From: a virus
Direction: 5' to 3' (one strand)
Virus record (IMG/VR): IMGVR_UViG_3300010354_000648
Span: 1-24,056 of that record
Length of the DNA stretch: 24,056 bases
The position numbers and the translations under genes are program-made. Below are positions 2 to 23,293 of the stretch, in pieces; within the stretch, counting starts at the first letter, position 1; every line of letters begins with the position of its first letter. The notes beneath the pieces are model-generated. The model saw only the letters and a list, made by a program, of their open reading frames with translations. It did not search any database and was not told the origin of the DNA.

Positions 2-3000
2 ACTACAGGAATTGCAACAGTAAGAAATGTTACATTTTCACTCCCAAATGCAACAACATTTGCAATAAATGGTGCTAACCCAACTATTTCTGGTACAAGC
101 ACTGGAACTTTAACTTTATTCAATACGGCGTTAACTAGGGTTGATGCTTTCCAAGCAGCAACAGATATAGTCATTGGTGGAGTAACAGGTGTTACTACGA
201 TTAGAAATAATTTAAATGTACCAGGATTAGATGCATTTGATATTCAAATTTCGGGAATATCAACATTCTTTGATAGCATTAATCAACCAGTTGGAACTAC
301 AAATTTAAATCAATTAGTAGTTTCGGGAGTAACTACTCTAGGTGGAATTAGTAATTTTGCAAATGATATTAATTCTATAAACATAATTAATTCTGGAACA
401 GTAAATACATCATCATTAAACGTTACTGGTGTTTCTACACTAAGGGGTGATTTAAATGTACGCGGAAATCTTACTGTTGATGGCAATGTCACATCAGTTA
501 ATTCATCGGTTTTACAAATAGATGATATAAACATTGAACTTGGTGTTGTGACAACACTATCTGGAATACAAGGATCTGTTGTAAGTGGTGCAAATGCAAT
601 TACATTAGACACAAATTTATACACTACAACTGGATTAATTCCAGGACAAACAATAACACAAACTGCAGGTACAGGTTCAATAGCATCTGGTACTGTTAGA
701 ATTGCAACTATAGTTTCAGCATCAACGTTTACAGTTGATGCACTACATTTGACAACAGGTGACATTACATTCAATGTTGGTGGAGCAACAGATTATACTG
801 CTAATGATGGTGGGGTTACTTTATATGGAACTACAAACAAGAGAATTTATTATTCAAGAGTTGACGATTCTTGGAGATCTACTGAAAACTTAGAACTTCT
901 TGGAGGTAAATCCTACAAAATAAATGGACAAGAGTTATTAAGAGAAACTCAACTAACAATTCAAAATGCCAATATTGGTGGAATTGCTACTATATCAAAT
1001 TTAAATTCTAATAATAGTTCAACATTTATTGGCACTGTTGGAAATCTTTTAGGAAATAATATTTACTATGTTGGAATATCAAGCTTCAACGAAACTTACG
1101 TTTCAGTAGGTATCGTTACAAACTTAAGAGCAGATTACTTTACATTAACAAATAAAGAAACTTTAATCGTATCTCAAAATAATTCTGTAATAGGACCAAA
1201 TACAAATAGAATTGCAATTAATACTACTGGTCTAAGACCAGAGATGACTGTTTATTCTACTGGAACTGAACTATTACCAAACACCACAATTCTGTCTATA
1301 GATGCTCCAGGTGTTATTACAATTACACCATCATCTATTAATCCATCCCAAACTACAACATCTACCGTGAGGGTAGTTGATGATCCTCGTGCTGGTGTTG
1401 CTAGCATTACAAAATTAAAAGCACATGTAGGTATCTTTACTAATTTTGATACAAGCAATGCAAATATAACTGGCATAGCAACAGCACAGCGTCTTTATGT
1501 AAACACAGACATCTATACACCTGGTATTTCATCAGCAGAAACTGTTACCGCTCGTGTTGGTTTAGTTACATTCTTAAGTGGAAATAATATTCAATACACT
1601 GGTGTTGGTACTATTAACACACTAAGAACAAATATTGGATTTGTTACAAATTTAGTTGGTACTAATCTTTGGTATTCTGGCATTTCAACACTACCAATTT
1701 TAAATACTAATGTTGGTATAGTCACATTCTTAACGGGTACTAATATTGTTTATAGTGGAATTGGTACTATAGACACCATAAGGTCTAATGTTGGATTTGT
1801 TACTACATTCTATGGTAGAGATATCCAAGTCACTGGAGTAACAACTACACCAACTATAAGAGTTAATACTGGATTTGTAACTACTATTTCTGGAACAAGA
1901 GCAACATATCCAGATATCGATAATACAAATTTATATAATACTGGAATAGCAAGTTTCACGAATTTAAGAACTAATGTTGGTATTGTAACATTTTTAACAG
2001 GAACTAATTTAAGTTACACTGGAATTGGTACTATTAATGATGTAAGATCAAACATTGTATATTCTGGAATTGGTACTATTGATACATTAACATCAACTGA
2101 TGTTACCATTTCAAATATATTAGATGTTCTAGAAATTATTACCAACAGAATAGGTACAATTAATTTAGATACAACAGATTTAAATGTCACTGGTGTATCT
2201 ACTATAGCATCTCTTACTGTACAAAATGTTGCAATAACTTCTGCTACTGGCGATAATTTCCAGACAACTACAATAACTGGTGAAAATTTAATATCTGATA
2301 GAATATATTCAGTAGGAATTACTAGTTTATCACAATTCTTTGGAAATATTGGATTTGTAACAAGTCTAACTGCTACAAATGTATCTTCTGGACTTGGAAC
2401 TATTACAACATTAAACAATACCAATTTTTACAACACTGGTGTTGGTACGGTTCTTGACTTAAGAACTAATGTAGGTTTAGTAACATTCTTAAGAGGTACT
2501 AATCTTACTTACAGTGGAATTGGTACTGTAGATACACTAAGATCTAATGTTGGATTTGTTACATTCCTAGAAGGAACCAATATTGCCTATAGTGGAATTG
2601 GTACTGTAGATACACTAAGATCTAATGTTGGATTTGTTACTACATTATCGGGTACAAACTTATCCTTTACTGGTGTTACTACATTAGTAACCGTAAATGC
2701 AAGTACTCTTCAAATTGGTAATATCACAAATACGGATACAGTTAGAACTAATGTAGGTTTAGTAACATTTATAAGTGGTACTAATATTGTTTATACTGGT
2801 ATTGGTACTATTGAAACTTTAAGAAACAACGTTGGATTTGTTACATTCCTAACAGGAACTAATCTTGCTTATAGTGGAATTGGTACTATTGATACATTAA
2901 GAACTAATGTTGGATTTGTTACTTCAATTTCAGGTACAACTGCATCATATACAAATGGAATATTTAATGTATTAAATGCACCAACTGGAATTATTACTGG

Positions 3001-4141
3001 ACTATCTGGTACTAGAGCCACCTACGTAGACTTTGATACTACAAACATATACGCTTCTGGTATAGGATCTATCTCTACATTAAGAACTAACATTGGATTT
3101 GCAACATTCTTATCAGGAACTAACTTAAATTATTCTGGAGTTTCTACGGTTGGATTTACTAGCGCAACAAACCTAAATGTATCTGGTATTACAACGATTA
3201 ATACGTTATTAATATCACCGAACAATACATTCAATTATATCTCTGGTGGTATAGATCTTGCCTTCAGTGGTATCGGTACTATTAGTAATTTAAGATCTAA
3301 CGTTGGTATTGTAACTTTCATATCTGGAACAAATCTTAACTACTCTGGGGTTGGTACAATTCCAACAATACAAAATACTAATATTGTAAGTACTGGTATA
3401 GCAACTGTAAATCAGTTGAATGGAACTAATTTAAACTTTACTGGAATTTCAACCTTTAATGCAATTAAAGGTAATAGTTTAGAAATTAATGATCTTGATA
3501 TTTTTGGATCTAATCTACTATACGCTGGAATAGCGACGTTTACAAGTAGATTAGATTCTACAAATGTATCCAATTTTAACTTCTTTAATGCAACTAATAT
3601 CGCTATTACTGGTGTAGGAACTTTACCTATAATAAGATCCGATCATATTCAAAATACTGGCGTAACTACTACTGGTAGATTACGTGTTGGTGTAGGTGGA
3701 ACTATCTTAACTGCAGATGCTACATCTGGAATCGGTTCTGTTGGTATCAATACAGTTTCACCAAACTCAGCACTTCATGTATATGGCGATTTACAAATAA
3801 GAGGAAATACTCTTGTAGGAACTATTTCGACAACTCTAACTTCAAATGCAACTGTTCAAGTGCATACTGCGCTATCGAGGGAAATATTTAGATCTGTAGA
3901 ATATACAGTACAAACTTCTATAGGAAATACTCATCAAATCGTTAAGATTTTATCAATTCATGATGGAGTAACATGTTCAAATTCTGAGTATTCAAATCTC
4001 TCAACTGGCGTTGATGTAGCATCCTATGATGTTGTTATAGATAACTCTATACCACCTGGATTTATCGCTTTAAGAGTAACACCAGTATCTAATGTTGGGG
4101 TAACAACAGTAGTCGTTAACTTCATAGCTAACAGAATATAA
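2..4141 (+). CDS. Fibre-like virion structural protein, 5' end outside the window
   Basis: The frame is open from position 2 to the TAA at 4139-4141, giving 1379 visible codons and no start. A GTG at 548 lies inside a conserved segment and is not the start: residues before it (LNVRGNLTVDGNV, then DDINIEL) continue a domain I know from T4-like marine phage structural proteins. This domain runs on to about nt 960 with an IYYSRVDDSWRSTENLELLGGKSYKING-type region (key residues W, L-GG, Y-ING). After it come at least 15 copies of a ~26-residue repeat, then a C-terminal block (from about nt 3660) with VGINTxxPNSALHVYGD, which is common near the ends of phage fibres. The repeat region probably forms an elongated trimeric beta-structure on the virion exterior. 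That is inference; no enzymatic motif is visible. The stop codon overlaps a late promoter for the next gene. Family-level call is solid; the exact virion position is not known. Confidence 0.85.
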   Translation, partial: TTGIATVRNVTFSLPNATTFAINGANPTISGTSTGTLTLFNTALTRVDAFQAATDIVIGGVTGVTTIRNNLNVPGLDAFDIQISGISTFFDSINQPVGTTNLNQLVVSGVTTLGGISNFANDINSINIINSGTVNTSSLNVTGVSTLRGDLNVRGNLTVDGNVTSVNSSVLQIDDINIELGVVTTLSGIQGSVVSGANAITLDTNLYTTTGLIPGQTITQTAGTGSIASGTVRIATIVSASTFTVDALHLTTGDITFNVGGATDYTANDGGVTLYGTTNKRIYYSRVDDSWRSTENLELLGGKSYKINGQELLRETQLTIQNANIGGIATISNLNSNNSSTFIGTVGNLLGNNIYYVGISSFNETYVSVGIVTNLRADYFTLTNKETLIVSQNNSVIGPNTNRIAINTTGLRPEMTVYSTGTELLPNTTILSIDAPGVITITPSSINPSQTTTSTVRVVDDPRAGVASITKLKAHVGIFTNFDTSNANITGIATAQRLYVNTDIYTPGISSAETVTARVGLVTFLSGNNIQYTGVGTINTLRTNIGFVTNLVGTNLWYSGISTLPILNTNVGIVTFLTGTNIVYSGIGTIDTIRSNVGFVTTFYGRDIQVTGVTTTPTIRVNTGFVTTISGTRATYPDIDNTNLYNTGIASFTNLRTNVGIVTFLTGTNLSYTGIGTINDVRSNIVYSGIGTIDTLTSTDVTISNILDVLEIITNRIGTINLDTTDLNVTGVSTIASLTVQNVAITSATGDNFQTTTITGENLISDRIYSVGITSLSQFFGNIGFVTSLTATNVSSGLGTITTLNNTNFYNTGVGTVLDLRTNVGLVTFLRGTNLTYSGIGTVDTLRSNVGFVTFLEGTNIAYSGIGTVDTLRSNVGFVTTLSGTNLSFTGVTTLVTVNASTLQIGNITNTDTVRTNVGLVTFISGTNIVYTGIGTIETLRNNVGFVTFLTGTNLAYSGIGTIDTLRTNVGFVTSISGTTASYTNGIFNVLNAPTGIITGLSGTRATYVDFDTTNIYASGIGSISTLRTNIGFATFLSGTNLNYSGVSTVGFTSATNLNVSGITTINTLLISPNNTFNYISGGIDLAFSGIGTISNLRSNVGIVTFISGTNLNYSGVGTIPTIQNTNIVSTGIATVNQLNGTNLNFTGISTFNAIKGNSLEINDLDIFGSNLLYAGIATFTSRLDSTNVSNFNFFNATNIAITGVGTLPIIRSDHIQNTGVTTTGRLRVGVGGTILTADATSGIGSVGINTVSPNSALHVYGDLQIRGNTLVGTISTTLTSNATVQVHTALSREIFRSVEYTVQTSIGNTHQIVKILSIHDGVTCSNSEYSNLSTGVDVASYDVVIDNSIPPGFIALRVTPVSNVGVTTVVVNFIANRI
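1553..3334 (+). repeat. ~26-residue (78-nt) protein repeat array in the first fibre gene
   Basis: The consensus is roughly TNLxYSGIGTIDTLRSNVGFVTFL followed by x-G. The NVGFVTFL-type core recurs at least 15 times, for example near 1630, 1711, 1789, 1975, 2347, 2467, 2548, 2626, 2749, 2830, 2908, 3088 and 3301. Two adjacent copies are identical over 50 nt (2513-2562 and 2591-2640), exactly 78 nt apart. Some copies are shortened, as at 2040-2085 where a SGIGTI half-unit follows with no NVGFVT core between. The repeat is in the coding frame and is not CRISPR-like. Confidence 0.9.
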
Positions 4142-4144
4142 ATA
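4137..4144 (+). promoter_or_regulatory. T4-type late promoter, TATAAATA
   Basis: TATAAATA is an exact match to the T4 late promoter -10 element. Transcription would start near 4150 and give a short leader holding the ribosome binding site of the 3255-residue fibre gene. The TAA stop of the preceding gene (4139-4141) lies inside the element. Confidence 0.75.
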
Positions 4145-4165
4145 AACTAAGATAAAAAATTACGC

Positions 4166-4173
4166 AAAGGGGA
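4166..4173 (+). promoter_or_regulatory. Ribosome binding site deciding a TTG start
   Basis: AAAGGGGA ends 9 nt before the TTG at 4183. No ATG or GTG lies at a suitable distance in this frame, and the encoded N-terminus (M)ADKNFRVKHG matches the usual beginning of marine T4-like structural proteins. TTG is therefore taken as the real start. Confidence 0.7.
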
Positions 4174-4182
4174 TAGTGAACC

Positions 4183-7100
4183 TTGGCTGATAAGAATTTT
4201 AGGGTAAAGCATGGTATCAATATTGATACCGAGAGATTAGTAGACGTTAATAGAAACATCGTAGCTGGTGTTACTACGTTCGCTCATGCAAGGGTAACTG
4301 GTGTTACAACCGTAGGTATTATTTCTGCCACCAATGGTGCTGGTGGAATGGGTATTGTAACATTCCAATCACAAATCGCTATTGAAAGTGGTGGACAAAG
4401 GATAACAATTACCCCACCAAGTCAAACGTCTGGATTTGTATCTTCATTTACTTTGACACTTCCAGCAAAACCTGGAACTGATGGACAAGTACTAACATAT
4501 GGTCCTGATGGAGTTCTAGGTTTTACTACCAATGGATTATATGAAAATAGATATTATGTCTCCTCAGCAAATGGAGATGATAATAATGACGGTAGATCAA
4601 AACCATTTAAAACTATTAAAAAGGCTGCTCAAGCAGCATCTTTTAGGTCATTCCAGTTACCAGGTGGAAGATATATAGATGCTGGTAATTTATTAACTGC
4701 TAATAGACAATTTATTCAAGAAGAAGTTGTTTCATATTTAGAATTTAATTTTCCAAACATTTATACAGATAAACCTGATTATGACAGAGCAATTTGTATA
4801 AGAGATGTTGGATACATTGTAGATGCTATTGCATACGACCTCTCTTACAGTGGAAATAGTAAGTCAGTAGAAGCTGGTCTTGCTTATTGGAGTGGTGGTG
4901 TATCTTATGTTCAAGGAGAAGAAAGTGAAGCATTGTTTGCATATAATTATATAAAATTCTTAGCACAATATGTAATTAATAATCAAACTCCACCAACATT
5001 ATATCAAAATGTAATTACACAAACCTTTGATTTTACCATTACTGATGATCCAGCTAATGTAAATATCAATAGATTTCATAGATCAAAGGACGCTAGAAAT
5101 TTAATCGTAAATAATAGACAAGAAATTATTGACAAGTCTCTTGCTGCAGTAGCAATTGCTCACTCGGACTTTTATTTTCCAAATGAAAGTTCTACTAACG
5201 CAAGATCCAGATATTATGATGCTTATAGATTAATTCAACAAAATAGACAAACTATTATTGATTATTCTTATGCTGGAATAGCAACTGCATATCCAGCATT
5301 TGTAAATCCAAATCCTAACAAGTGTAGGAGAGATTTGGGTTATTTTATCGATGCAATTTCTACGGATGTTTTTACTGGTGGTAATAACTACGCTAGAGAA
5401 TTTGTATTAAAATATTTTACTGGTGTTGGTATTGGTAGTCTTGCTGGTGAAGAGCAGCAAACTATCTACGCATTTAGATACGCTGGAGACTTAATGAGAG
5501 AGGCGATAACAAATCGTCTTCCAATCAAAGATTTAACTGTTTCTGTAGGATCAACCACATATGGTGGAATAGGAACAGCAAATAATTACAATAATCAACA
5601 ATCTATTGCCTTTGATATTTTATTCAATCAAGAAGGTGATCAATATATTCTGAACGCACAAACAATCCCATCAAATACAAGCCCAAATGCTTGTTTTGAT
5701 GTTCAAACTAATATTGTTTCTCTTGTTGGTATTGTTACTAGTGTCATCGGAGCAGGTAACACAACAAGTTTACCAGCATATAATGGTGGATATTTTGCTG
5801 GAATTACAACATCGTGTAATGTTATTTGTGGAAGTATTGGTATTGGATCCACAAACATAATAGGCGGTAGAAAGTGTGCAAGAGATCTTGGATATATTGT
5901 TGACGCTATCGCACAAGATATTTCTTACCAGTCAAATCAACACATCATATATGCAACAAAAGCATATTTTGATGGTGCGGGTGTTCCAATATCAAATGGT
6001 CTATTAGGTGAGCAATCACAATCAGTAACTGCATTCCAAGCAGCAAGAGATTATGCAAAGTTGGCGATTACAAATCAATTAAATTATCAAGATTTAACTA
6101 TAATTGCAGATTCACTTACTGGGTTCAATACAAGTCCATCTTCTTGTGCAAATGTTAGAGCAAATATTGATAGTTTAGTTGGAATTCTAACAGCAGCAAT
6201 TACAAATGGAAATCTGTCATCTGTTCCAGCAACTGGTATAGGAGCAACAACAGATTGTGCAAATGTTAGATCTGCCATTGTAAACTCAGTAGGTATTATA
6301 ACTTCTATCATTGGTATAGGTACTACTGCAGCACCAGCAGTGTCTTTACCAACAACACTATCCAGACCAATCTGTATATTTGTAGAAGCTGGAGATTATG
6401 TAGAAGATAACCCAATTCTCCTTTATGATGATGTTGCCGTTGTTGGTGATAACCTTAGAAATACAATTATTAGACCACAAAACGCAGGTAAAGATCTTTT
6501 CCGAGTTAGGAAAGGTTGTTATGTAACTGGTTTTGCTATGAAAGACTATATTGATGCTGCTGGTGTGCCTCAATATACTTTCGATTATGCTGTAGCATTT
6601 GACGACCCTCTTGATACATTTACAAGTAGAATTGGATATGCAGTAAAAACTGATAAACCAGCAATTACAAGATCACCATATATTCAAAACTGCTCTATAC
6701 TGTCATTCTTAGGCGCAAATGGTATCCTTGTTGATGGTGCAAAAATACAATCACCTAACGTTGCAAATATACCAGAAGAAGGAGAAAACCCTGTATCGGG
6801 AGGACAACCACAATTTGGTAAATCCATGGTTGCTGCGGCATTTACCATGGTTTCGTTTGGTGGAATTGGATGGAGAACTATAAATGATGGTTACGCTCAA
6901 GTAGTTTCTTGCTTCCAAATTTTCTGTAAGTATGGATCATTAACACAATCTGGTGGATACTTATCAATCACAAACTCGGCAACTAACTTTGGTTTATATG
7001 CACTAAGATCTTCTGGATTTAATGAAAGATCTTATGTATTCGATAGAGGTAGAATTGCGGCAACAGGAACAAGCAGTGGTGCCCAAACATTAAGAACAAT

Positions 7101-10100
7101 TGGTTTAGGAAGAACTGATCAAGATCTATATGTTCTAAGATTCTTTGATAATGCTGGAAATGATGATACAGCAGATTTTAAACCAGTTGTAACTCAAGCA
7201 ACATTCCAACCAACAGTAGGTCTTAACACTGCAACAGATAGATTTACCGTTGTTGCACACCCATTTTTAAATGGAGATACTGTATTATACATTGGTGATG
7301 AAAACTCAGCCCCTCAAAGAGTTATTGAGGGTATGGTTAGCGGTAACCAGTATTACTTGGGATACATCGATGCTAATACATTCCAACTATATGAAGATGA
7401 AGCATTAACAAGAATTGTTAACACAAAATCAAGACCTACTGGAATTAATACGTTCCAGAAAGGAAATGTAGAATTTTTCGCATCAGAAATTTTAGATTCA
7501 CACAACGACTATCAAATTGTTTCTCTTGCAAGTACAACCTCATCATTGAACTTTGTTTCTGGTAGACAAATTACACAATTAGTTCCTGGTGGAACTGCAG
7601 TTGGATATGCTTATACTTACAATTCAACAAAGAGAGAGTTAGTAGTTTCAGTAGAATCTTCTGGTGGCGTAACTAGACTATTTGGAGTAACAGATGGTGT
7701 TGCGACGTTAAAAATTAATGACCATAGTGGAAGCCCAGTTTCTATCGCTGTTACTGGTGTTGCTGGAGTTAGCACTTATTATACCGTTGAATGTAAAGTT
7801 GGTGCTACAATACCAGATACTGTTATCAACGGTGTAGGTAATTTACCAGAGACTTACAAATTACACTTCCATAGACCATCTATTATCAACTCTTCATCTC
7901 ACACATGGGAGTTCTCTGGATCTGGTACTGACTATAATGCATTACCAGAGAACGGAGGAAAAACAATAACGTCTACCGAACAACTTTCGGAACTTGGTGG
8001 TCGTGTTTATTCTTCTGGAACTAATGAATTAGGTGACTTTAAGATTGGTAGCTTTATTACTGCATATAATAGAACTGGTAATATTGTCTTTAATAATAAA
8101 GTTACCATTGGTCAGTTAGATTCTCTGAGATTAAGTCTTTCTGGTGGTGTTGCTGTTGAAGAGTTCTCAACTGATATTGGACTTGGTGATAATGAAATCG
8201 GAGGTCCACAGAATAAGAGAGTTTCAACTCAACTAGCGGTTAGAACATTCTTAAACAATAGACTGGGAAGCTTTATTGATAAATCAATTTCAACCAATGC
8301 TGTTCCAAGTGCTATCGTTCAATTAAATTCAAATGGACAGATTAACCCAGACCTTATTCCACCAAAAGTCGTTAACTACTACACAGCGAGTGTTTCTGGT
8401 GGAAGAACAGATCTAGTTAATAGAATACCAGCAATAAACCTTCAAAGTGGGGATACTGTTCTTGAACCAGCAAGTGGATATGTACTAACTAATGATCTTT
8501 TTGGTCAGTATTTAATTCTAAGTAGCACTACAAGAAATTATAACTACTTAAACGGTGATGAAATAATTGGAACGAATAGTGCTGGGGGTGCGATTGGAAT
8601 TGTCACTGCACCACCTTCAAATGCAGTTGGATATGGAACAACGGGTCTTGTAAAAGGTGTTTTACTATCAGCAACTATAACCTCTGGCGGTTCTGGTTAT
8701 ACAAATCCAGGTATCTACACATGCGTTCTCGATAGAACAACTGGAATTGGTACTAGTGCAAGAGCTGCTATAACTGTCGGTGCTTCTGGAACAGTAACAG
8801 CAATTAGTGTTAATTTTGGTGGACGTGCTTATACTTCAGGTGATGTTTTAACTATCAATAATGCAACGCTTCTTGGTGGAAGAACTGGTGGTGCCAACTT
8901 TACTGCTACTGTCAGCATAGTAGAAACTAGACTATATTTAAGATTAACAAATAATCAAAAGTTTACTGCCTCAACATCTTTACCTGATTACATTACTGAT
9001 AGAGATGCTGTAGGTATTGGTACAAGTTTACAAATACAGTATCAAAAAACTTTTACACCAACAGATATTAGTATTGGTGGTGGTGTAGACTTTACAAATA
9101 ATAGAATAGTTGTCGGTCTTTCAACTTTTACAAATGGAGATCCTGTAATTTATTCTTCCGCTGGAGGAAATGTTATTGATGGATTAACACAGAGTGATAC
9201 TTATTATATTAAGAGAGTTGGTCTAAGTTCAGTAGAACTTCATACTACATATGGATTAACATCTTTAGTACCTCTAACTGGCAGTGGAACTGGTACACAT
9301 AGCTTAACGAGAGTTGGTGTAAACACTTCTGATGATTTTATAGTATTTGAAAAGCATGGATTTGCAACTGGTGATGCGGTAAGAGTTTCTGGACCAACTC
9401 CAGTGGGCGTAACAACTGGAGCATTCTATTTTGTTGGTTCAATTGTTACTAATGCATTTACTCTTCATTCCACAAGAGCAGACGCTACTTCTTCAGTAAA
9501 TGGATCAACATTTAGTCCAGTAGGATTAGGAAGCACAGCAACTGGAACAGTAACATTTACCAAACAGAACGTTCAATATAACTCTACGGTTAATACATCG
9601 TCAAACATTTTGGACAACTGGAGTGTTCTTGCAACATCTTCAGTCGATGCAGCAAATATAACCAGCGGAACAATTTCACCTTCAAGACTTGGATCTGGTA
9701 GTGCAAACTCCGATACATTCTTGAGAGGAGATTCTACGTTCGATAGAGTTGTAACAAGAGTTGGAATTGCTACTACCGAACCTTTAAGTGCTACTGCTTC
9801 ATTTACAGAAAGTGCTCCAGGTGGAATTGGTATTAACACTTATATTGGTAAAGTTAATCTTTCTATCCAAAGAGTTAAAACTGTAATCGGTCAAGATTAT
9901 ACATCTTTAGGTGTATCTAAATTTAAGACTTCTACGTTTAGTATAGGAAGTGATGGTGAAGTTTCTATTAAAAATTCATCAACAGGTGATATTGATGCGG
10001 CATCTTTAGGTGGTCAAGCAGGTTCTTACTATCTAAATCCAGTAAACTTCACGTCATCTATCCCTATTTCAAAAGGTGGTACTGGATTGGCAGCTCTCCC

Positions 10101-13100
10101 ACCAGCAGGATCAATTCTCCAAGGAAATGGAACCTCATATGATCTTGTAACATCACCAACCTTATCAGGAAATCTCACATTAACTGTTGGTGGGTATTTC
10201 AGAGCAGTTGGTCTTGCAGTAACACATGGAAGTATTAGTGGATTTGGAACTATTACCAATTTAGAATCTACTAACACAATAACTAGTGGAATTGCTACAT
10301 TTAGTGGGTCTGCAAATAACATTAATCAGACTGCTGGTACAGCAGCATTGAATAGATTGACTGTAACTGGTGTTTCAACATTTAATAATACAGTTAATGT
10401 TAACACTATTACAATGTCTGATGCAACGAATTCCCGTTTAACAAACGCGGGAACAATTGTTGCATCAAACCAGACAGTTTCTGGTGTTGTAACATTTAGT
10501 GGATCTGCAAATAATATTAACTGTACAGCAGGTACTCAAGTCTTTAATAGAGCAGTATTCTCGGGAATTACAACATTCTTAAGTGACGTTAATGTAGGTG
10601 TTGCAAATTATCAAACTGCAACTGTTGCTGGAACATTGACTGCTGGAAACTTTAGTGTTTCTGGAATTTCAACTTTAGCAAGAGTATCAATATCTAATAC
10701 GTTACTTGCAACAACCGTTACAGTATCTGGTGTAACTACATTTAGTGATACGATTAATACTCAAGCAATCAATGCTTCTTCTACAGCATCGCTAACTTTA
10801 CCAAATATTTTAAATACAAACACCGTTACAAGTGGTATTACTACCTTTAACAGTGCTTCAAATAATATTAATCAAACTGCTGGTACAGCAGCATTGAATA
10901 GATTGACTGTTGCTGGAATTTCTACATTCACTGGACAAGTAAATTATGGAACTTTATCTGGATTTACGTTAACTAACAGTGGAACCGCAGCATTAACAAA
11001 TGAAACTGTTTCTGGAGTATCAACATTTAGTGGATCTGGAAATAACATTAACCAAACTGCTGGTACAGCAGCACTGAATAGATTAACTGTTACTGGTATT
11101 TCTACGTTTACTGGTCAATTAAATGCTGGAACTGTATCTGCTACTACTTTATCAGGAACTCTGGGTAATACCCTAACAATCAACTCGCCTTTAACAGGAT
11201 CATCTTATAACAACTCAGCAGCAGTCAGTATTGGTATTAATGCTACAAGTGCAAATACTGCAAACTTTGTTGTTCAGCGTGGTGCTTCTGGTGAATTTAG
11301 TGCTGGTGCAATCACTGCAACAAACTACTTAGTTACTACAGCAAGTTCTACAGAGGCGTCTGGTGTTGCTTTACAAAGAGTATTCAGTAAGACTGTAAAT
11401 GCTGGTCAACTTTATAGATTGGCAGAATATGAAGATACTGAAGGTGATGTAGCATTTGAAATTCAAGTTTCATCAGAGACTGGAGCACACTCAGGAACAT
11501 CTATATACAGATTCCAAGGTGGATTTAGTATACTGACTGGTTCGTACTATAGATTATATCCATATAATACTGGCAATGGTCATGGAGATGGTGCAGATAC
11601 TGGATTAGATAGTAACGCTTGGAATGTATTTATCTATGGTGCAGCAGTAACTGGAAGTTCATACAAATACGGTATCGCAGTTCATGTTCCTGCAGGAAGA
11701 TCAAATAAAGTTCTAGTAACTACAGTTACCGAACTTAAGAGAGGTATGACCTTTACCGATCAAAGTGCAACGGCAGTTATTACAACATTCACCAATTCTG
11801 GAAATGTTTATCCAAATAAAAATTTATTCATAGAAAATAGAATTGGTGTCGGTAAAGTTCCAACTACTGCGATTGATGTAAATGGAACAGTAACTGCCAC
11901 CACATTTGCTGGTTCTGGTGCTTCATTAACGTCTATTCCTAACAGTGCAACCACAGCAACAAGTGCAAATACCATTAATGCAATAGTTGCTAGAGATGGT
12001 TCTGGTAACTTTAGTGCTGGTACAATCACGGCAACTTTAACTGGAGATTCTAGTGGATTAACTTCGTTTGACACAAGAGCAACCAATCCACAACCACAAT
12101 CTTATAGTGCATCATTAAGAATAGATTTTAAAGAGAATACTGCAAATTCACTTTCTGATGGTGGAACTTACAATGGCGTTCTTTCTTGGAGAAAGTATGG
12201 AACTACTACTGATTTTAGTGGTGGTGCTATGCTCCAACTTGCGTACACAGATAATGGAAATCTGTGGCGCAGAATAAGTACAAACTCAACAACATGGGGA
12301 ACCTGGGCTAAGTTCTGGCATGATGCAAATGATGGTTCTGGATCTGGTCTCGATGCTGATTTACTTGATGGATTGAACTTAAGTACAAACGGAAGTGCTA
12401 ATACATCAGCGAATATTATTCCAAGAACAGATGCTTCTGGTAATATTGGATTTGCTACAGTTTCAACTACTGTTGGTATTCTAACAAATACTACAAACAT
12501 TGATAGAGTTTATGTCGGAAATGATAATGCAATTCTCAGAAAAGACATTAATGACTTTAAGGAAAAAGTTGGACTAACCTACAAACAATTCCGCCCAAGA
12601 AGTTCTGATACTACAGATACTAACTATTGGACTGGTGTGATGGGTTGGAACACCACAGACCTGAATAATGTCTTTGATTGGGGTTCTGGTTTTGTTGATA
12701 CTTGGGGATCTCCAGGAAATGCTCCTTCGGGAACAACTCACTGGGTTGGCACTCAAGCAATGCACTATACCAACAACTCAACCAGATATGGTTGGCAGGA
12801 ACTTGTTGGTGCTGGTGATCCTTCTCTACACTTTATAAGAGGTGTTTGGGGTGGTGCATTTACATCATGGAGAAGAATTTGGAATGAAGGTAATGATGGT
12901 TCTGGATCTGGTCTTGATGCAGATTTACTCGATGGTTTGAATTCGGCATCTACTAATACAGTCTCAACTATTGTTGCTAGAGATAGTTCTGGTGGTTTTG
13001 CTGCGGCAAAAGTCGATACTACTCAGTTAACCAAAACAAATGCAAGAGTAGATACTGCAGAAAGATATCCAATTGGTCATTACAGCCAAGGTGAAGCGGT

Positions 13101-13950
13101 ATTTGAGTTAGATCCAACTTGGACAAATGCAGAACTACAGAATTATTTCAATTTTGCTGGCGTTTCTTGGGTCAACGATTCAACTGCCCCTGGTGGTTAT
13201 GCAGTTTCTATTACTGGTCAACCAAGCGTTGGTGGTGAATATGGATCTGGTTTCCCATATATTCCAGTTGATACTAATGACATATATTATATGGAGTGTT
13301 ACATTAGAAATGTAACTGGAACAAATACTCATTATATGGGTTCTATTGATTACAATGAAGCATTTACATCATTAGGTGGAAATCCAGGATCGTTTGGATA
13401 TTGGGCAATGCTTAATACAAATCCAGGAACTACTTGGACTAAAGTAAGTGGATACATTACAGGATTTGGTGCTTCTACTGGTCAGTTTAAGGCAGGTACT
13501 AAGTATTGGACACCTATGGCATTGTTCAATTACACGACAACACAAGTACCTGGATCATCTGCTGTTTGTTATATTTCTGGATGGAAAGTATTCAGAGTTT
13601 CACACTTTGGTAACAGAACAATTACTGGTAATTTCACCGCAAGTGGTAATGTTACTGCAAACTCCGATATTAAACTCAAGACAAATATTAAACCAATTGA
13701 AAATGCTCTTGAAAAAGTAACTAAGATGCGTGGTGTTGAATTTGATCGTATTGATAGAGACAATGAGCATCAAATTGGTGTTATTGCTCAAGAAATTGAA
13801 GAGGTTATTCCAGAAGTTGTTTCTGATAATTATGGAACAAAAGCAGTTGCTTATGGAAACATTACAGCAGTTCTAATTGAGGCAATTAAGGAACAACAAG
13901 TTATGATAAATAATCTGAAAGCAGAAATTGAGGAGTTGAAGAAAAAATGA
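4183..13950 (+). CDS. Giant mosaic tail fibre/adhesin with C-terminal S74 chaperone domain (3255 aa)
   Basis: Starts at TTG behind AAAGGGGA. Modules in order: (a) residues 1-120, ADKNFRVKHG leader; (b) 124-148, YYVSSANGDD...PFKTIKKAAQ, the N-cap pattern of pectin-lyase-like right-handed beta-helices; (c) about 150-720, a helical insertion with three DLGYIVDAIA-type repeats; (d) from about 727 the helix resumes (ICIFVEAGDYVEDNP); (e) about 1500-1585, GSGYTNPG...GGRAYTSGDVLTI module; (f) about 1960-2000, SKGGTG fibre motif; (g) 2041-2314, NNINQTAG repeats; (h) two DGSGSGLDADLLDGLN repeats at 2717 and 2905 separated by Trp-rich modules ending in W-R-RIWN; (i) about 2958-3146, a Trp/Tyr-rich beta-sandwich-like segment, perhaps carbohydrate-binding; (j) 3161-3255, Peptidase_S74 intramolecular chaperone, with SDIKLK (Ser3161, Lys3166 as the expected Ser-Lys dyad) and GVIAQEIEEVIPEVV, ending in a coiled coil. 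Self-cleavage before Ser3161 would leave 3160 residues. Likely function is host receptor binding at the virion surface. Confidence 0.88.
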   Translation: MADKNFRVKHGINIDTERLVDVNRNIVAGVTTFAHARVTGVTTVGIISATNGAGGMGIVTFQSQIAIESGGQRITITPPSQTSGFVSSFTLTLPAKPGTDGQVLTYGPDGVLGFTTNGLYENRYYVSSANGDDNNDGRSKPFKTIKKAAQAASFRSFQLPGGRYIDAGNLLTANRQFIQEEVVSYLEFNFPNIYTDKPDYDRAICIRDVGYIVDAIAYDLSYSGNSKSVEAGLAYWSGGVSYVQGEESEALFAYNYIKFLAQYVINNQTPPTLYQNVITQTFDFTITDDPANVNINRFHRSKDARNLIVNNRQEIIDKSLAAVAIAHSDFYFPNESSTNARSRYYDAYRLIQQNRQTIIDYSYAGIATAYPAFVNPNPNKCRRDLGYFIDAISTDVFTGGNNYAREFVLKYFTGVGIGSLAGEEQQTIYAFRYAGDLMREAITNRLPIKDLTVSVGSTTYGGIGTANNYNNQQSIAFDILFNQEGDQYILNAQTIPSNTSPNACFDVQTNIVSLVGIVTSVIGAGNTTSLPAYNGGYFAGITTSCNVICGSIGIGSTNIIGGRKCARDLGYIVDAIAQDISYQSNQHIIYATKAYFDGAGVPISNGLLGEQSQSVTAFQAARDYAKLAITNQLNYQDLTIIADSLTGFNTSPSSCANVRANIDSLVGILTAAITNGNLSSVPATGIGATTDCANVRSAIVNSVGIITSIIGIGTTAAPAVSLPTTLSRPICIFVEAGDYVEDNPILLYDDVAVVGDNLRNTIIRPQNAGKDLFRVRKGCYVTGFAMKDYIDAAGVPQYTFDYAVAFDDPLDTFTSRIGYAVKTDKPAITRSPYIQNCSILSFLGANGILVDGAKIQSPNVANIPEEGENPVSGGQPQFGKSMVAAAFTMVSFGGIGWRTINDGYAQVVSCFQIFCKYGSLTQSGGYLSITNSATNFGLYALRSSGFNERSYVFDRGRIAATGTSSGAQTLRTIGLGRTDQDLYVLRFFDNAGNDDTADFKPVVTQATFQPTVGLNTATDRFTVVAHPFLNGDTVLYIGDENSAPQRVIEGMVSGNQYYLGYIDANTFQLYEDEALTRIVNTKSRPTGINTFQKGNVEFFASEILDSHNDYQIVSLASTTSSLNFVSGRQITQLVPGGTAVGYAYTYNSTKRELVVSVESSGGVTRLFGVTDGVATLKINDHSGSPVSIAVTGVAGVSTYYTVECKVGATIPDTVINGVGNLPETYKLHFHRPSIINSSSHTWEFSGSGTDYNALPENGGKTITSTEQLSELGGRVYSSGTNELGDFKIGSFITAYNRTGNIVFNNKVTIGQLDSLRLSLSGGVAVEEFSTDIGLGDNEIGGPQNKRVSTQLAVRTFLNNRLGSFIDKSISTNAVPSAIVQLNSNGQINPDLIPPKVVNYYTASVSGGRTDLVNRIPAINLQSGDTVLEPASGYVLTNDLFGQYLILSSTTRNYNYLNGDEIIGTNSAGGAIGIVTAPPSNAVGYGTTGLVKGVLLSATITSGGSGYTNPGIYTCVLDRTTGIGTSARAAITVGASGTVTAISVNFGGRAYTSGDVLTINNATLLGGRTGGANFTATVSIVETRLYLRLTNNQKFTASTSLPDYITDRDAVGIGTSLQIQYQKTFTPTDISIGGGVDFTNNRIVVGLSTFTNGDPVIYSSAGGNVIDGLTQSDTYYIKRVGLSSVELHTTYGLTSLVPLTGSGTGTHSLTRVGVNTSDDFIVFEKHGFATGDAVRVSGPTPVGVTTGAFYFVGSIVTNAFTLHSTRADATSSVNGSTFSPVGLGSTATGTVTFTKQNVQYNSTVNTSSNILDNWSVLATSSVDAANITSGTISPSRLGSGSANSDTFLRGDSTFDRVVTRVGIATTEPLSATASFTESAPGGIGINTYIGKVNLSIQRVKTVIGQDYTSLGVSKFKTSTFSIGSDGEVSIKNSSTGDIDAASLGGQAGSYYLNPVNFTSSIPISKGGTGLAALPPAGSILQGNGTSYDLVTSPTLSGNLTLTVGGYFRAVGLAVTHGSISGFGTITNLESTNTITSGIATFSGSANNINQTAGTAALNRLTVTGVSTFNNTVNVNTITMSDATNSRLTNAGTIVASNQTVSGVVTFSGSANNINCTAGTQVFNRAVFSGITTFLSDVNVGVANYQTATVAGTLTAGNFSVSGISTLARVSISNTLLATTVTVSGVTTFSDTINTQAINASSTASLTLPNILNTNTVTSGITTFNSASNNINQTAGTAALNRLTVAGISTFTGQVNYGTLSGFTLTNSGTAALTNETVSGVSTFSGSGNNINQTAGTAALNRLTVTGISTFTGQLNAGTVSATTLSGTLGNTLTINSPLTGSSYNNSAAVSIGINATSANTANFVVQRGASGEFSAGAITATNYLVTTASSTEASGVALQRVFSKTVNAGQLYRLAEYEDTEGDVAFEIQVSSETGAHSGTSIYRFQGGFSILTGSYYRLYPYNTGNGHGDGADTGLDSNAWNVFIYGAAVTGSSYKYGIAVHVPAGRSNKVLVTTVTELKRGMTFTDQSATAVITTFTNSGNVYPNKNLFIENRIGVGKVPTTAIDVNGTVTATTFAGSGASLTSIPNSATTATSANTINAIVARDGSGNFSAGTITATLTGDSSGLTSFDTRATNPQPQSYSASLRIDFKENTANSLSDGGTYNGVLSWRKYGTTTDFSGGAMLQLAYTDNGNLWRRISTNSTTWGTWAKFWHDANDGSGSGLDADLLDGLNLSTNGSANTSANIIPRTDASGNIGFATVSTTVGILTNTTNIDRVYVGNDNAILRKDINDFKEKVGLTYKQFRPRSSDTTDTNYWTGVMGWNTTDLNNVFDWGSGFVDTWGSPGNAPSGTTHWVGTQAMHYTNNSTRYGWQELVGAGDPSLHFIRGVWGGAFTSWRRIWNEGNDGSGSGLDADLLDGLNSASTNTVSTIVARDSSGGFAAAKVDTTQLTKTNARVDTAERYPIGHYSQGEAVFELDPTWTNAELQNYFNFAGVSWVNDSTAPGGYAVSITGQPSVGGEYGSGFPYIPVDTNDIYYMECYIRNVTGTNTHYMGSIDYNEAFTSLGGNPGSFGYWAMLNTNPGTTWTKVSGYITGFGASTGQFKAGTKYWTPMALFNYTTTQVPGSSAVCYISGWKVFRVSHFGNRTITGNFTASGNVTANSDIKLKTNIKPIENALEKVTKMRGVEFDRIDRDNEHQIGVIAQEIEEVIPEVVSDNYGTKAVAYGNITAVLIEAIKEQQVMINNLKAEIEELKKK
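4804..5937 (+). repeat. Three DLGYIVDAIA-type repeats inside the split beta-helix domain
   Basis: Copies start at 4804 (DVGYIVDAIAYDLSYSGN), 5332 (DLGYFIDAISTDVFTGGN) and 5884 (DLGYIVDAIAQDISYQSN), each preceded by C/I-R-R or A-R. Between the first two there is a second internal repeat, NRQEIIDKSL...FYFP and NRQTIIDYSY...PAFVNP. Pattern and composition suggest a helical domain inserted into the beta-helix. Confidence 0.8.
10303..11124 (+). repeat. NNINQTAGTAALNRLTV repeats in the giant fibre
   Basis: Four copies have their Asn-Asn at 10315, 10510, 10861 and 11041, so spacing is uneven (65, 117 and 60 residues). Copies 1, 3 and 4 read NNINQTAGTAALNRLTV almost exactly. Copy 2 is diverged (NNINCTAGTQVFNRAVF). 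Each is followed by a GVSTF/GISTF turn. Probably stacked units of the fibre shaft. Confidence 0.8.
12331..12942 (+). repeat. Duplicated DGSGSGLDADLLDGLN element in the giant fibre
   Basis: The 16-residue element occurs at 12331-12378 and 12895-12942, 564 nt (188 residues) apart, each time just after a Trp-rich segment (TWAKFWHDAN and SWRRIWNEGN). LDADLLDG is a familiar joint between modules in phage tail fibres, so this marks repeated receptor-facing modules. Confidence 0.8.
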
Positions 13951-14218: not shown

Positions 14219-14246
14219 AAAAGAGGGACTTAGTTCCCTCTTTTTT
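14219..14246 (+). terminator. Rho-independent terminator after the fibre unit
   Basis: A 10-bp perfect stem (AAAAGAGGGA paired with TCCCTCTTTT, positions 14219-14228 and 14235-14244) encloses a 6-nt loop. The 3' arm leads straight into a T run ending at 14246. This is the only convincing intergenic terminator in the window. Confidence 0.9.
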
Positions 14247-14253
14247 ATAAATA
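14246..14253 (+). promoter_or_regulatory. T4-type late promoter, TATAAATA, fused to the terminator
   Basis: Exact TATAAATA. Its first T is the last base of the terminator T run. By T4 geometry transcription starts at about 14259-14261, at or next to the first possible start codon of the downstream gene. It would serve the 423/489-residue protein, gp17 and the zinc-finger gene, since no other promoter is seen before 17655. Confidence 0.75.
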
Positions 14254-14260
14254 AAAAAAA

Positions 14261-15532
14261 GTGTCGCTAGAAATGAAGAGATTATCCGAAGACCACAAAG
14301 AGATTGCAAGTGGTAAGAAGAAAGATGATGAAGGATATATGGCCCGTAATGAAATGGATACTATTGAACGTTCTATTAATAAATTGAGAAAAGTTATAAA
14401 AAAAGGAGATACTCAGTTACCTGCTTGGGTGCAATCAAAGATCACCAAGGCAGCAGATTATATTGATACTGCTGCAGAGTATCTTCAAAGTGATGAAGGT
14501 ATTGATGAAGGAAAGCAAGTTAGTTTTGCTGTTAAAAAATCATCTGGTGCTGGAGCACTTACTCCAGATGCAGCAAAACAACTAGGAGATAGAGCGGTCA
14601 AATTACAAAAAGCAAAAGCAGCGGCAGTTTCTCTTCCATCAGTAAAAAAGGAAGAGATAACTTTAGTACAAAAAATTCTTGGTGAAGAGAAATGTGGTAA
14701 AGGAATGTATTGGTGTAACACCGATAAAGTATGCAAACCTTTACCTGATGGTTTTAAGGTAGATGGGCAAAAGAAAAAACCAACCGAAGTTGGGATTGGG
14801 AAACCAGTTGCAGAAGAAAAATCATGCAATCATACAAAGAAAGGAAAATCATGTCCACTGCATGGTGAAGAAGATTGTTCAATGAAAGAAGAGAAAGATC
14901 CAAAAGGACCAGTAAAATCATACAAATCTCCAGAGGAAATTGCTAAAAAGCACGGCGTTTCGGTAGAAGCAATTCAAAAACAACTTAAGATTGGAACTAA
15001 AGTTGAGGGAGAACACACTTCAGATAAAACAGCAGCAAGAATTACTGCATTACAACATTTAGACGAAGTTCCAAATTATTACACTAAACTCAAAAAAGTA
15101 GAAAAGAAATCTACAAAATCCGAAAGTGTTACTATTGAAGATATGTTTGGTAATAAATTTGTAGAATTTATAGATTTAATTAAACCAGAACCATTAAAAA
15201 AAGAAGAGCAAATAGACGAAGCAGTTAGACTTCCATCACAAAATGGGCAATTGATGGCAATAATGTTTACTTGGAGAGGAAGATCGTATTCTTTGAGAAT
15301 GTTCTTCCCACAAATAAAAGTACCTTCAAGAAAGGAAGTTGAATATGAATTGCAAAAAGTATATCCAGAAGCAAAAGTTTTAAATACACGTATAACAGAT
15401 TTAAGACCTGGTGGAGATCCTATTGTTCAAGTTCAAAATTCTCCTTCAAAAAATTATCTATTAAATAACAAAAATATCGGTGAGAGTGCTGCTTGGACAA
15501 AGAAATCGGGAAAGCAGCAAGCGGCGGTCTAA
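14261..15532 (+). CDS. Multidomain phage protein upstream of terminase, zero-frame product (423 aa)
   Basis: Candidate starts are GTG at 14261 and ATG at 14273. A TAA in the same frame at 14252-14254 excludes an earlier one, and neither has a clear Shine-Dalgarno sequence. Order of parts: a helical N-terminal module (about 22-77, with LPAWVQSKITKAADYIDTAA); a Lys/Ala-rich linker; Cys-rich segments with C145, C152, C158 and then C189, C198, C206, which could bind metal; a segment at about 223-283 (EEIAKKHGVSVEAIQKQL, EHTSDKTAARITALQHL, YYTKLKK) that resembles the DUF5661 phage family; and a small alpha/beta-like domain at 327-378 (MFTWRGRSYSLRMFF, VPSRKEVEYELQKVYPEA). The frame ends QQAAV just after a -1 slippery site, so part of the product is probably extended to 489 residues. 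Likely a virion or head-assembly protein of marine T4-like phages; its precise role is unknown. Confidence 0.8.
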   Translation: MSLEMKRLSEDHKEIASGKKKDDEGYMARNEMDTIERSINKLRKVIKKGDTQLPAWVQSKITKAADYIDTAAEYLQSDEGIDEGKQVSFAVKKSSGAGALTPDAAKQLGDRAVKLQKAKAAAVSLPSVKKEEITLVQKILGEEKCGKGMYWCNTDKVCKPLPDGFKVDGQKKKPTEVGIGKPVAEEKSCNHTKKGKSCPLHGEEDCSMKEEKDPKGPVKSYKSPEEIAKKHGVSVEAIQKQLKIGTKVEGEHTSDKTAARITALQHLDEVPNYYTKLKKVEKKSTKSESVTIEDMFGNKFVEFIDLIKPEPLKKEEQIDEAVRLPSQNGQLMAIMFTWRGRSYSLRMFFPQIKVPSRKEVEYELQKVYPEAKVLNTRITDLRPGGDPIVQVQNSPSKNYLLNNKNIGESAAWTKKSGKQQAAV

Positions 15533-15550
15533 ATGAAAAAGGTCGCCGCT
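15508..15550 (+). promoter_or_regulatory. Programmed -1 ribosomal frameshift signal
   Basis: The heptamer GGGAAAG (15508-15514) lies in the zero frame as G GGA AAG, the X XXY YYZ phase needed for tandem -1 slippage. After a 5-nt spacer (15515-15519) comes an 11-bp stem: 15520-15530 pairs with 15540-15550, including two G-U pairs, with a 9-nt A-rich loop (15531-15539). Seven consecutive pairs at the stem base (AGCGGCG with CGCCGCT) are nearly all G-C, which stands out in AT-rich DNA. The zero-frame TAA (15530-15532) sits at the top of the stem. GGGAAAG is the slippery sequence known from the lambda G/GT tail assembly frameshift. Confidence 0.8.
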
Positions 15551-15729
15551 CATACGAAAAAGAAAATCCTGGTAGTGATTTAAAAAGACCTTCAAAGGAA
15601 GTTGGAAATCCACGTAGAACATCATTTTGTGCCCGTATGAAGGGAATGAAGAGTAAATTAACTTCAGCAAAAACTGCAAACGATCCAGATTCAAGAATAA
15701 ACAAATCGCTCAGAGCTTGGAATTGTTAA
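15514..15729 (+). CDS. Basic C-terminal domain read in the -1 frame as frameshift extension (71 codons)
   Basis: The frame is open from 15484 (after a TGA at 15481-15483) to the TAA at 15727-15729. It has no ATG before the MKGMK segment and no ribosome binding site; a TTG at 15493 is the only candidate start upstream of the domain. Read after slippage, K418 joins to AASGGLNEKGRRSYEKENPG, then RRTSFCARMKGM and finally DPDSRINKSLRAWNC. The joined sequence AWTKKSGK plus AASGGLNEKGRRSYEKENPG is what I recall as a continuous domain in other phage proteins (the DUF6321 type, name from memory). The domain is very rich in Lys and Arg, so nucleic-acid contact is conceivable but unproven. The predicted fusion is 489 residues. 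A genuine deletion or sequencing error between two once-continuous frames is the alternative, but the slippery site and stem-loop argue against it. Confidence 0.8.
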   Translation, partial: AASGGLNEKGRRSYEKENPGSDLKRPSKEVGNPRRTSFCARMKGMKSKLTSAKTANDPDSRINKSLRAWNC

Positions 15730-15738
15730 TTACTTATT

Positions 15739-17385
15739 ATGGCTGAACATTATCTCGGTAATCCGCTTTTAAAGAAAGCGAATACTGCTATTGAGTTTAC
15801 TCAAGATCAAATTATAGAATTTGCTCGTTGTCAAGACGACCCAATTTACTTTGCAAAAAATTATATTCAGATTGTTACCCTTGATTATGGTTTACAACCA
15901 TTTAAACCATATAAGTTCCAAGAAACAATGATTGATAGATTTCATAATCATCGTTTTAATGTATGCAAATTACCAAGACAGTCTGGAAAGTCTACGATTG
16001 TTGTCTCATATCTTCTTCATTATGCAATTTTTAATGACAACGTAAACATCGCTATTCTAGCTAACAAGGCATCTACTGCAAAAGATCTTTTAGACCGCCT
16101 TCAGACGGCATATGAGAACCTACCAAAGTGGTTACAGCAGGGGGTAATGACATGGAACAAAGCATCTTTGGAGTTGGAAAATGGATCAAAAATTATTGCT
16201 GCTTCTACATCAGCATCTGCAGTTCGTGGAGGTTCATACAACATCATCTTCCTCGACGAATTTGCTTTTATTCCCAACCATATTGCTGATCAGTTTTTTA
16301 GTTCAGTTTATCCTACTATTTCTTCTGGTAAAAATACCAAAGTAATTATTGTTTCTACCCCTCATGGGATGAATCATTTTTATAAAATTTGGCATGATGC
16401 CGAACGTAAAAAGAATGAATACATCCCAACAGAAGTTCACTGGAGTGAAGTTCCTGGTAGAGATGAAAAATGGAAAGAACAGACTATTGCAAACACTAGT
16501 GAGCAGCAGTTCAAAGTTGAGTTTGAATGCGAATTCTTAGGATCTGTTGATACATTAATTTCACCAAATAAACTTCGCAATTTGGTTTATGAAGCACCTA
16601 GATTAAGAAGTGGTGGTTTAGATGTTTTTGAAGACGTGAAGGATGACCACAATTATGTAATTTCGGTTGATGTTGCTAGAGGAGTTGGTAATGATTATTC
16701 GGCATTTGTTGTTGTAGACATAACACAATTTCCACATAAAGTTGTTGCAAAATATAGGGACAATCAAATAAAACCAATGCTATTTCCAAGCATTGTCCAT
16801 GAAGTAGCAAAGAGTTACAACGATGCTTATGTCTTATGTGAAGTAAATGATGTTGGAGATCAAGTAGCATCAATTTTACACTTTGATCTAGAATATCAAA
16901 ATGTTTTAATGTGCTCTATGCGAGGTAGAGCTGGTCAAATTGTTGGACAAGGATTTTCTGGAAAGAAAACTCAATTAGGTGTTAAGATGTCCAAAACTGT
17001 AAAAAAAGTTGGGTGTCTTAATCTTAAAACAATGGTTGAAGAAGATAAATTATTGTTTAATGATTATGATATAATCAGCGAATTAACAACTTTTATTCAA
17101 AAATCAAATTCATTTGAAGCAGAAGATGGTTGTAATGATGATTTAGCAATGTGTCTTGTAATTTATGCTTGGTTAGTTGTACAAGATTATTTTAAAGAAT
17201 TAACGGATCAAGATGTTAGAAAAAAATTATATGAAGAAAAAGAGAATGAAATAATGCAAGATATGGCACCATTTGGATTTATTGTGGATGGGATAAATGA
17301 TCAAGCATCTTTTGTAGATGACACTGGAGATCGATGGTATACGGATGAGTATGGTGACATGGCATATATGTGGGAATATCGATAA
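15739..17385 (+). CDS. 17: Terminase large subunit, gp17-like (548 aa)
   Basis: DNA-packaging motor: an ATPase that drives DNA through the portal, and a nuclease that cuts the concatemer at headful completion. The ATPase domain shows Walker A LPRQSGKST (78-86, Lys84), Walker B IIFLDE (169-174, Asp173/Glu174) and the coupling motif STPHG (206-210). The RNase H-fold nuclease shows ISVDVARG (Asp311), CEVNDVGD (Glu368) and GCNDDLAM (Asp467/Asp468) as the expected acidic triad. At 548 residues it is somewhat shorter than T4 gp17 (610). The ATG lies 9 nt after the TAA of the -1 frame domain. It has no Shine-Dalgarno sequence and no late promoter directly upstream, so it is probably transcribed from 14246. 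Ribosomes completing the frameshifted product terminate next to this start, whereas those ending in zero frame stop about 200 nt earlier; coupling is therefore possible. Confidence 0.97.
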   Translation: MAEHYLGNPLLKKANTAIEFTQDQIIEFARCQDDPIYFAKNYIQIVTLDYGLQPFKPYKFQETMIDRFHNHRFNVCKLPRQSGKSTIVVSYLLHYAIFNDNVNIAILANKASTAKDLLDRLQTAYENLPKWLQQGVMTWNKASLELENGSKIIAASTSASAVRGGSYNIIFLDEFAFIPNHIADQFFSSVYPTISSGKNTKVIIVSTPHGMNHFYKIWHDAERKKNEYIPTEVHWSEVPGRDEKWKEQTIANTSEQQFKVEFECEFLGSVDTLISPNKLRNLVYEAPRLRSGGLDVFEDVKDDHNYVISVDVARGVGNDYSAFVVVDITQFPHKVVAKYRDNQIKPMLFPSIVHEVAKSYNDAYVLCEVNDVGDQVASILHFDLEYQNVLMCSMRGRAGQIVGQGFSGKKTQLGVKMSKTVKKVGCLNLKTMVEEDKLLFNDYDIISELTTFIQKSNSFEAEDGCNDDLAMCLVIYAWLVVQDYFKELTDQDVRKKLYEEKENEIMQDMAPFGFIVDGINDQASFVDDTGDRWYTDEYGDMAYMWEYR

Positions 17386-22812: not shown

Positions 22813-22968
22813 ATGGATGAACTTTTAGATATGATCATTTCAGATGAATCTCCATCACAAGTAAGTGATAAAATTAAAGAATTACTTTTCACAAAATCTT
22901 CTGAAAAAATTGAAGGATTGAGACCATCTGTAGGCGCTGCATTATTTGGCGAACAAGAAGAGGATTGA
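22813..22968 (+). CDS. Very short prohead-core-like protein in the gp67 position (51 aa)
   Basis: Runs ATG 22813 to TGA 22966-22968. The product begins MDELLDMIISDESPSQVSDK and ends GAALFGEQEED. Pattern (short helix, D-SP, helix IKELLFTKSSEKIEGLRP, acidic end) and location directly after gp20 match the small prohead core protein gp67 of T4-like phages, which in T4 is a longer acidic protein cleaved by the gp21 protease. The residue match to T4 gp67 is weak, so the name is positional. It has its own late promoter, and no Shine-Dalgarno sequence is visible. A 60-codon cut-off would miss it. Confidence 0.75.
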   Translation: MDELLDMIISDESPSQVSDKIKELLFTKSSEKIEGLRPSVGAALFGEQEED

Positions 22969-22972
22969 TCAA

Positions 22973-23293
22973 ATGAAATCATTCAAGCAATTTATATCTG
23001 AATCAGTTAATATTGCTGGTGATTTTACTGGAAATCTTTATATTAATTCTCAACCAGAACAACCACAACAGGTTGGTGAAGGATATGTTGCCGATATAAT
23101 GTGGCAAGGAAATCTTTATAGATTGGAATTAGTAACAACTTCTGGAGTTCCATCAAAACAAGAACTTGGTGAGCAACTTCAGAAAGAATATCCTGGAGCA
23201 ATGGTACATAACATTTATCCAGCAGAAGAAAAGAATTTTAACATTAAAAATACAAAAAGATATCACCCATCGAAATTAGAGTGGATTGATTAA
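22973..23293 (+). CDS. Protein in the gp68 position with a small shared virion domain (106 aa)
   Basis: Starts at ATG 22973, four bases after the preceding stop, with AAGAGGA (22958-22964) eight bases upstream; a TTG at 22946 in the same frame would overlap the previous gene and has no support. The N-terminus MKSFKQFISES resembles the opening of T4-like prohead proteins. Residues 37-82 (GYVADIMWQGNLYRLEL, VPSKQELGEQLQKEYPGAMV) form a small alpha/beta-like domain that is clearly similar to residues 327-378 of the protein encoded upstream of terminase. In T4 this position holds the prohead core protein gp68. I see position and general character agreeing, but no firm family proof. Confidence 0.75.
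   Translation: MKSFKQFISESVNIAGDFTGNLYINSQPEQPQQVGEGYVADIMWQGNLYRLELVTTSGVPSKQELGEQLQKEYPGAMVHNIYPAEEKNFNIKNTKRYHPSKLEWID

Follow-up and report, generated by a model that had tools for sequence, protein, structure and literature searches.

A putative programmed -1 ribosomal frameshift, kept in diverged phages, in the gene upstream of terminase

The stretch of DNA analysed here, referred to as the window, comprises 24,056 nucleotides of a viral record (IMG/VR IMGVR_UViG_3300010354_000648). Since its nearest named DNA is cyanophage-like, a Synechococcus-type host is inferred. The features considered below are the following.

14246..14253, + strand: TATAAATA, a T4-type late-promoter-like motif upstream of the putative frameshift gene
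14261..15532, + strand: 0-frame ORF (short form), 423 aa from GTG 14261 or 419 from ATG 14273, with C-terminal residues ...SAAWTKKSGKQQAAV before the stop
15508..15514, + strand: slippery heptamer G_GGA_AAG (GGGAAAG read directly; 0-frame codons TCG GGA AAG)
15514..15729, + strand: -1 frame extension of 71 aa, the DUF6321 domain (PF19846; long form)
15515..15519, + strand: spacer CAGCA, 5 nt, of equal length in all carriers of the -1 arrangement
15520..15550, + strand: predicted stem-loop, 11 bp with a 9-nt loop
15520-15530, + strand: 5' arm of the stem, AGCGGCGGTCT
15530-15532, + strand: 0-frame stop TAA, whose first base closes the 5' arm and whose other two lie in the loop
15531-15539, + strand: loop, AAATGAAAA
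15540-15550, + strand: 3' arm of the stem, AGGTCGCCGCT
15739..17385, + strand: terminase large subunit (gp17-like), the next gene (PF03237, PF17289)
22946-23293: small gene after a portal-like gene, with the capsid-targeting-like MKSFKQFISES near its start

According to Pfam, the 0-frame protein carries DUF5661, and its body has homologs at 79 IMG/VR loci, most of which align from about residue 2-8. The -1 frame is open from 15484 to 15729 and matches PF19846 with E=3.9e-22 and 79.1 bits, against a gathering cut-off of 28.5. A -1 slip would join K418 to AASGG..., giving a product of 489 aa from GTG 14261 or 485 from ATG 14273. A preliminary description of this DNA had proposed a programmed -1 frameshift on the basis of the phase of GGGAAAG, the 5-nt spacer, the 11-bp stem-loop, the stop within this structure and the -1 frame running to 15729, and each of these elements was read where it had been placed. 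The motif TATAAATA occurs twice in the window, which is no excess over chance, and each copy directly precedes a gene. The copy at 4137 lies ahead of a 3255-residue tail-fibre-like ORF (4183-13950) whose C-terminus is a Peptidase_S74 self-cleaving chaperone domain.

DUF6321 is present in 502 phage records, mainly of cyanophages, and every isolate looked at encodes its DUF6321 protein in one frame. The domain forms the C-terminus of a single ORF in S-SM2, ACG-2014j, S-H38, Sf-FS3 and P-SSM2, and it is likewise in frame in P-HM2, S-SRM01, S-N03, S-SCSM2R, B23 and DSL-LC02, the last being the closest isolate encountered. The motif AAWTKKxGKxxSGGLNEKGR stood in one frame at 50 of the first 53 places that were inspected; the window (counted twice) and L007 were the exceptions. 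No -1 carrier was found among annotated phages, where every match at 100% coverage covers 71 nt, one more than the 70 of the -1 allele, and is therefore in frame. A scan of genome contigs for the -1 spacing returned one match only, by chance, and four extra matches from a looser scan were rejected as chance or in frame. With the pattern Trp-N26-Gly-Gly, the matches listed were small stand-alone DUF6321-like proteins of other viruses and the known carriers. The predicted DUF6321 fold is helical (pLDDT 74) and had no match in the PDB. With the majority of relatives using a single frame, there is no universal need for two products. The preliminary description had named single-frame relatives as evidence that would refute its proposal; such relatives are indeed the majority, but the carriers keep two frames together with the signal.

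These carriers were found by scanning IMG/VR with the pattern Trp-N12-Gly-Lys, 8 nt, Gly-Gly-Leu, which has the one-base-short spacing and does not require a slippery site. The scan returned five contigs from five datasets, namely L269 (=L087), which is a near-twin of the window, and the diverged L167 (=L007), L195, L237 and L285. GGGAAAG was present in all five though absent from the search pattern, compared with 3/76 at the homologous place in an unbiased set of in-frame relatives. All five have the same order of G_GGA_AAG, C[AC][GC]CA and AGCGGCGG...CG[CT]CGC, then a 0-frame stop at the loop, which is TAA or TGA in the carriers other than the window. In each case the fusion length equals the spacing of the family exactly (AAW[TQ][KR]K.GK-xx-SGGLN), and the alignment of relatives that had been proposed as a check shows GGGAAAG, stem, both frames and exact fusion length to be kept in the carriers. 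The diverged carriers differ from one another in the -1 domain by 30-46 of 207 nt but by only 1-8 of 69 residues, mostly through synonymous changes; L195 and L285, for instance, are separated by 28 synonymous codon differences and a single amino acid. Such drift requires that the domain is translated in the -1 frame. What the sequences themselves show is the architecture, the persistence of the signal and of both reading frames in diverged phages, and coding selection acting on the -1 domain. The putative frameshift shows itself to be specific to some lineages, and in a tree of the 174 nt past the element the carriers do not form one clade (4 changes, at least 2 of them forced, on a short alignment), which makes recombination or repeated origin possible.

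The 0-frame bodies of the five carriers vary, with lengths of 519, 596, 360, at least 178 and 276 aa. Despite near-identity, the body protein of L087 has about 95 extra residues internally relative to window 14261-15529, and internal modules of the body gene come and go between close relatives of this kind.

RNAfold of the window returned precisely the 15520-15550 stem, at -15.1 kcal/mol and with G-C in 7 of the 11 pairs. Not one of 5,000 sequences that encode the same peptide synonymously, drawn according to the codon usage of this phage, folded as well, and in every carrier the native hairpin (-14.0 to -20.1) was stronger than all 3,000-5,000 such recodings of SGGLNEKGRRSY (about -2.3 to -3.0 for random ones). 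A predicted stem-loop 5 nt past the heptamer is therefore beyond chance, being exceptional against recodings; for stimulation itself there are no data. The element is rich in codons that this phage uses rarely, including TCG (6% of Ser), AGC (23/502 Ser) and CGC (10/234 Arg). The carrier stem depends on the Arg-Arg of GRRS, the second of which is Lys in 100/104 in-frame relatives, and 0/74 in-frame relatives attained -13.5 kcal/mol at the place of the hairpin. Across carriers, 93% of the cells in the stem pair counts were paired. No double-sided compensatory change was seen at any base pair of the stem in the carriers, the stem being too conserved to tell, and an Rfam search gave no match. Shuffle z-scores for 61-nt stretches of the carriers were moderate only (-1.25 to -3.9 for those correctly placed). 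Two in-frame DUF6321 alleles, L019 and L032, retain GGGAAAG and a strong hairpin (-17.9 kcal/mol in L019); a -1 slip in these would terminate at once.

A similar trace would be left by an error of sequencing or assembly, or by the recent loss of one base that turned an in-frame gene into a pseudogene, and most relatives do have one more base than the window between GGNAAR and GGNGGN. However, one and the same architecture recurs in five contigs of five datasets that are up to 46/207 nt apart, the -1 domain has drifted mostly by synonymous changes, and the slippery site and stem are conserved at a place without a long homopolymer. A control scan of IMG/VR for the +1 spacing gave one error-like contig, with more indels nearby. 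Error or decay is thus strongly disfavoured, and we give it very little credence.

The DUF6321 domain might also be a gene in its own right, initiated independently or by coupling, either at TTG 15493 or by re-initiation past the stop. The preliminary description had stated that the -1 frame has no ATG or ribosome binding site ahead of its conserved part; as a correction, the TTG in the window could in principle serve, and L285 has an ATG, while other viruses have DUF6321-like domains as small proteins that stand alone. Two other carriers, L195 and L237, have no ATG, GTG or TTG ahead of the domain in the -1 frame, so that an own start or coupling is unlikely to yield the domain there. Moreover, the ATG next to the stop is in the 0 frame and closes after 16 codons, and the family motif AAWTKKxGK is split precisely at the slippery site. 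We consider a separate gene quite improbable. Real recoding by another route, namely transcriptional slippage or a +2 shift, is barely credible: -1 and +2 cannot be separated by the frame relation alone, but G_GGA_AAG is a known tandem -1 site, it stands at the right distance from the stem, and a long homopolymer on which a polymerase could slip is lacking.

A conserved programmed -1 ribosomal frameshift in the gene upstream of terminase is therefore left as the very probable explanation, judged from sequence comparison in the absence of any slippage measurement, ribosome profiling or peptide data; its proposal in the preliminary description is supported by four diverged relatives and a near-twin. 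A phased X_XXY_YYZ heptamer, a predicted stem at 5 nt, within the required span of about 5-9 nt, a start-less -1 ORF under coding selection and a two-frame layout kept in diverged relatives are the sequence criteria for the heptamer-plus-stimulator class of such frameshifting, and all four are fulfilled; the remaining criterion of the class is measured slippage above background. Ribosomes would meet G_GGA_AAG five nt ahead of a stable G-C hairpin, and some, probably most, would stay in the 0 frame up to the stop a few codons on and release the short protein, although that the long form is the minority has not been shown. Others would slip back one base, re-read GGA AAG as GGG AAA and continue into DUF6321. 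The body protein would then exist in two versions, one of them extended by a basic C-terminal domain, and presumably at a fixed ratio. Slippage itself, its efficiency and the product ratio are inferences only, as is slippage in the host, which is itself inferred and for which there are no data on its tRNA-Lys slipping at this site.

Homologous junctions carry a second signal. In close relatives of the body (L088-L090, which are 94% identical, L099, L100 and L105-L107) a divergent DUF6321 follows in frame, with no obvious slippery site at the junction. In 15 contigs (L097, L103, L104, L112-L118, L120, L122, L123, L127 and L151), A_AAA_AAG and a stop occupy the same junction; the body ends with GRGGTTGAAATA NNN GAN NNA AAA AAG and then the stop, the upstream GRGGTTGAAATA being nearly invariant. 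Past this heptamer the -1 frame enters one of three domains: a CNKP domain, another domain without a name, or a divergent DUF6321 that lacks any start codon for 171-189 nt. A_AAA_AAG is also kept in about 20 contigs with an in-frame CNKP domain (L091-L094, L096, L098, L101, L108, L111, L119, L132, L133, L135, L140, L147, L148, L152, L413-L415 and L418). In these in-frame homologs it is mostly followed by TCT GA, and a -1 slip mostly meets TGA after one codon; the slip would thereby give the short product, which mirrors the group of 15. Over 38 sequences with a median protein identity of 48%, the codons of the site are almost fixed (GTT 37/37, ATA 36/37, AAA 36/36, AAG 35/37) and other conserved codons vary. 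Taken alone the CNKP cases are ambiguous, because this domain also occurs as a small protein that starts at an ATG of its own; no such ambiguity attaches to the cases with the divergent DUF6321. On balance it seems rather probable that, in this T4-like, cyanophage-related group, the C-terminal slot of the gene upstream of terminase is controlled by recoding, with different end domains behind two types of -1 site (G_GGA_AAG with a hairpin, and A_AAA_AAG with an upstream GRGGTT), and that some phages swapped the frame of the long product and kept the slippery site, both forms still being made.

The heptamer of the lambda G/GT frameshift is G_GGA_AAG, and the -1 frameshift of E. coli dnaX uses A_AAA_AAG with an internal Shine-Dalgarno-like sequence and a hairpin. 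Both heptamers are known strong sites, G_GGA_AAG is highly shift-prone in E. coli, and the mechanism of the G/GT frameshift has been described (PMC5009743). The parallel with lambda drawn in the preliminary description stands for the mechanism, with the same heptamer, a -1 shift towards the end of a late gene, and short and extended forms. It fails for the gene, which unlike G/GT lies upstream of terminase and not of a tape measure, has its stop placed at the loop of a strong hairpin, and gave no match when homology to the G/T family of tail assembly chaperones was sought; with terminase as the next gene, membership in that class is not met. The homologous genes with A_AAA_AAG resemble dnaX in the heptamer, the conserved upstream GRGGTT, a hairpin 5 nt downstream in some, and the short form that a slip in the in-frame members would give; unlike dnaX they are phage genes, and in the 15 contigs the polarity is inverted, a slip leading to the long form. 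Compared with the cyanophage DUF6321 / T4-GC119 proteins, the -1 domain is a clear member with a similar neighbourhood near gp16/gp17, but theirs is encoded in frame. In the full-text literature, of which few subscription journals were covered, no account of recoding at this locus came up. Frameshifting of this kind is a classical mechanism.

In biological terms, some phages would make DUF6321 proteins in two lengths at a domain-exchange junction, which would imply that stoichiometry matters, probably in the particle. Recoding would act here as the switch for the end piece of a viral gene, slippage remaining unmeasured, and gene callers miss that last domain in the carrier phages. The homologs (in frame, slip to long, slip to short) form a natural series in which effects of frameshift-set ratios could be tested. 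The gp16-gp17 neighbourhood, the annotations, capsid-targeting-like starts and a segment shared with a post-portal gene suggest that the product belongs to the prohead or the virion; that it acts in the assembly of either is an inference. In some phages the annotation of DUF6321 proteins is structural protein or virion protein. A few short DUF6321 proteins begin like the capsid-targeting peptides of T4 (6/106 ORFs, versus 31/3668). The small post-portal gene at 22946-23293 and the body protein have a segment in common (37% over 51 aa, E=5e-6).
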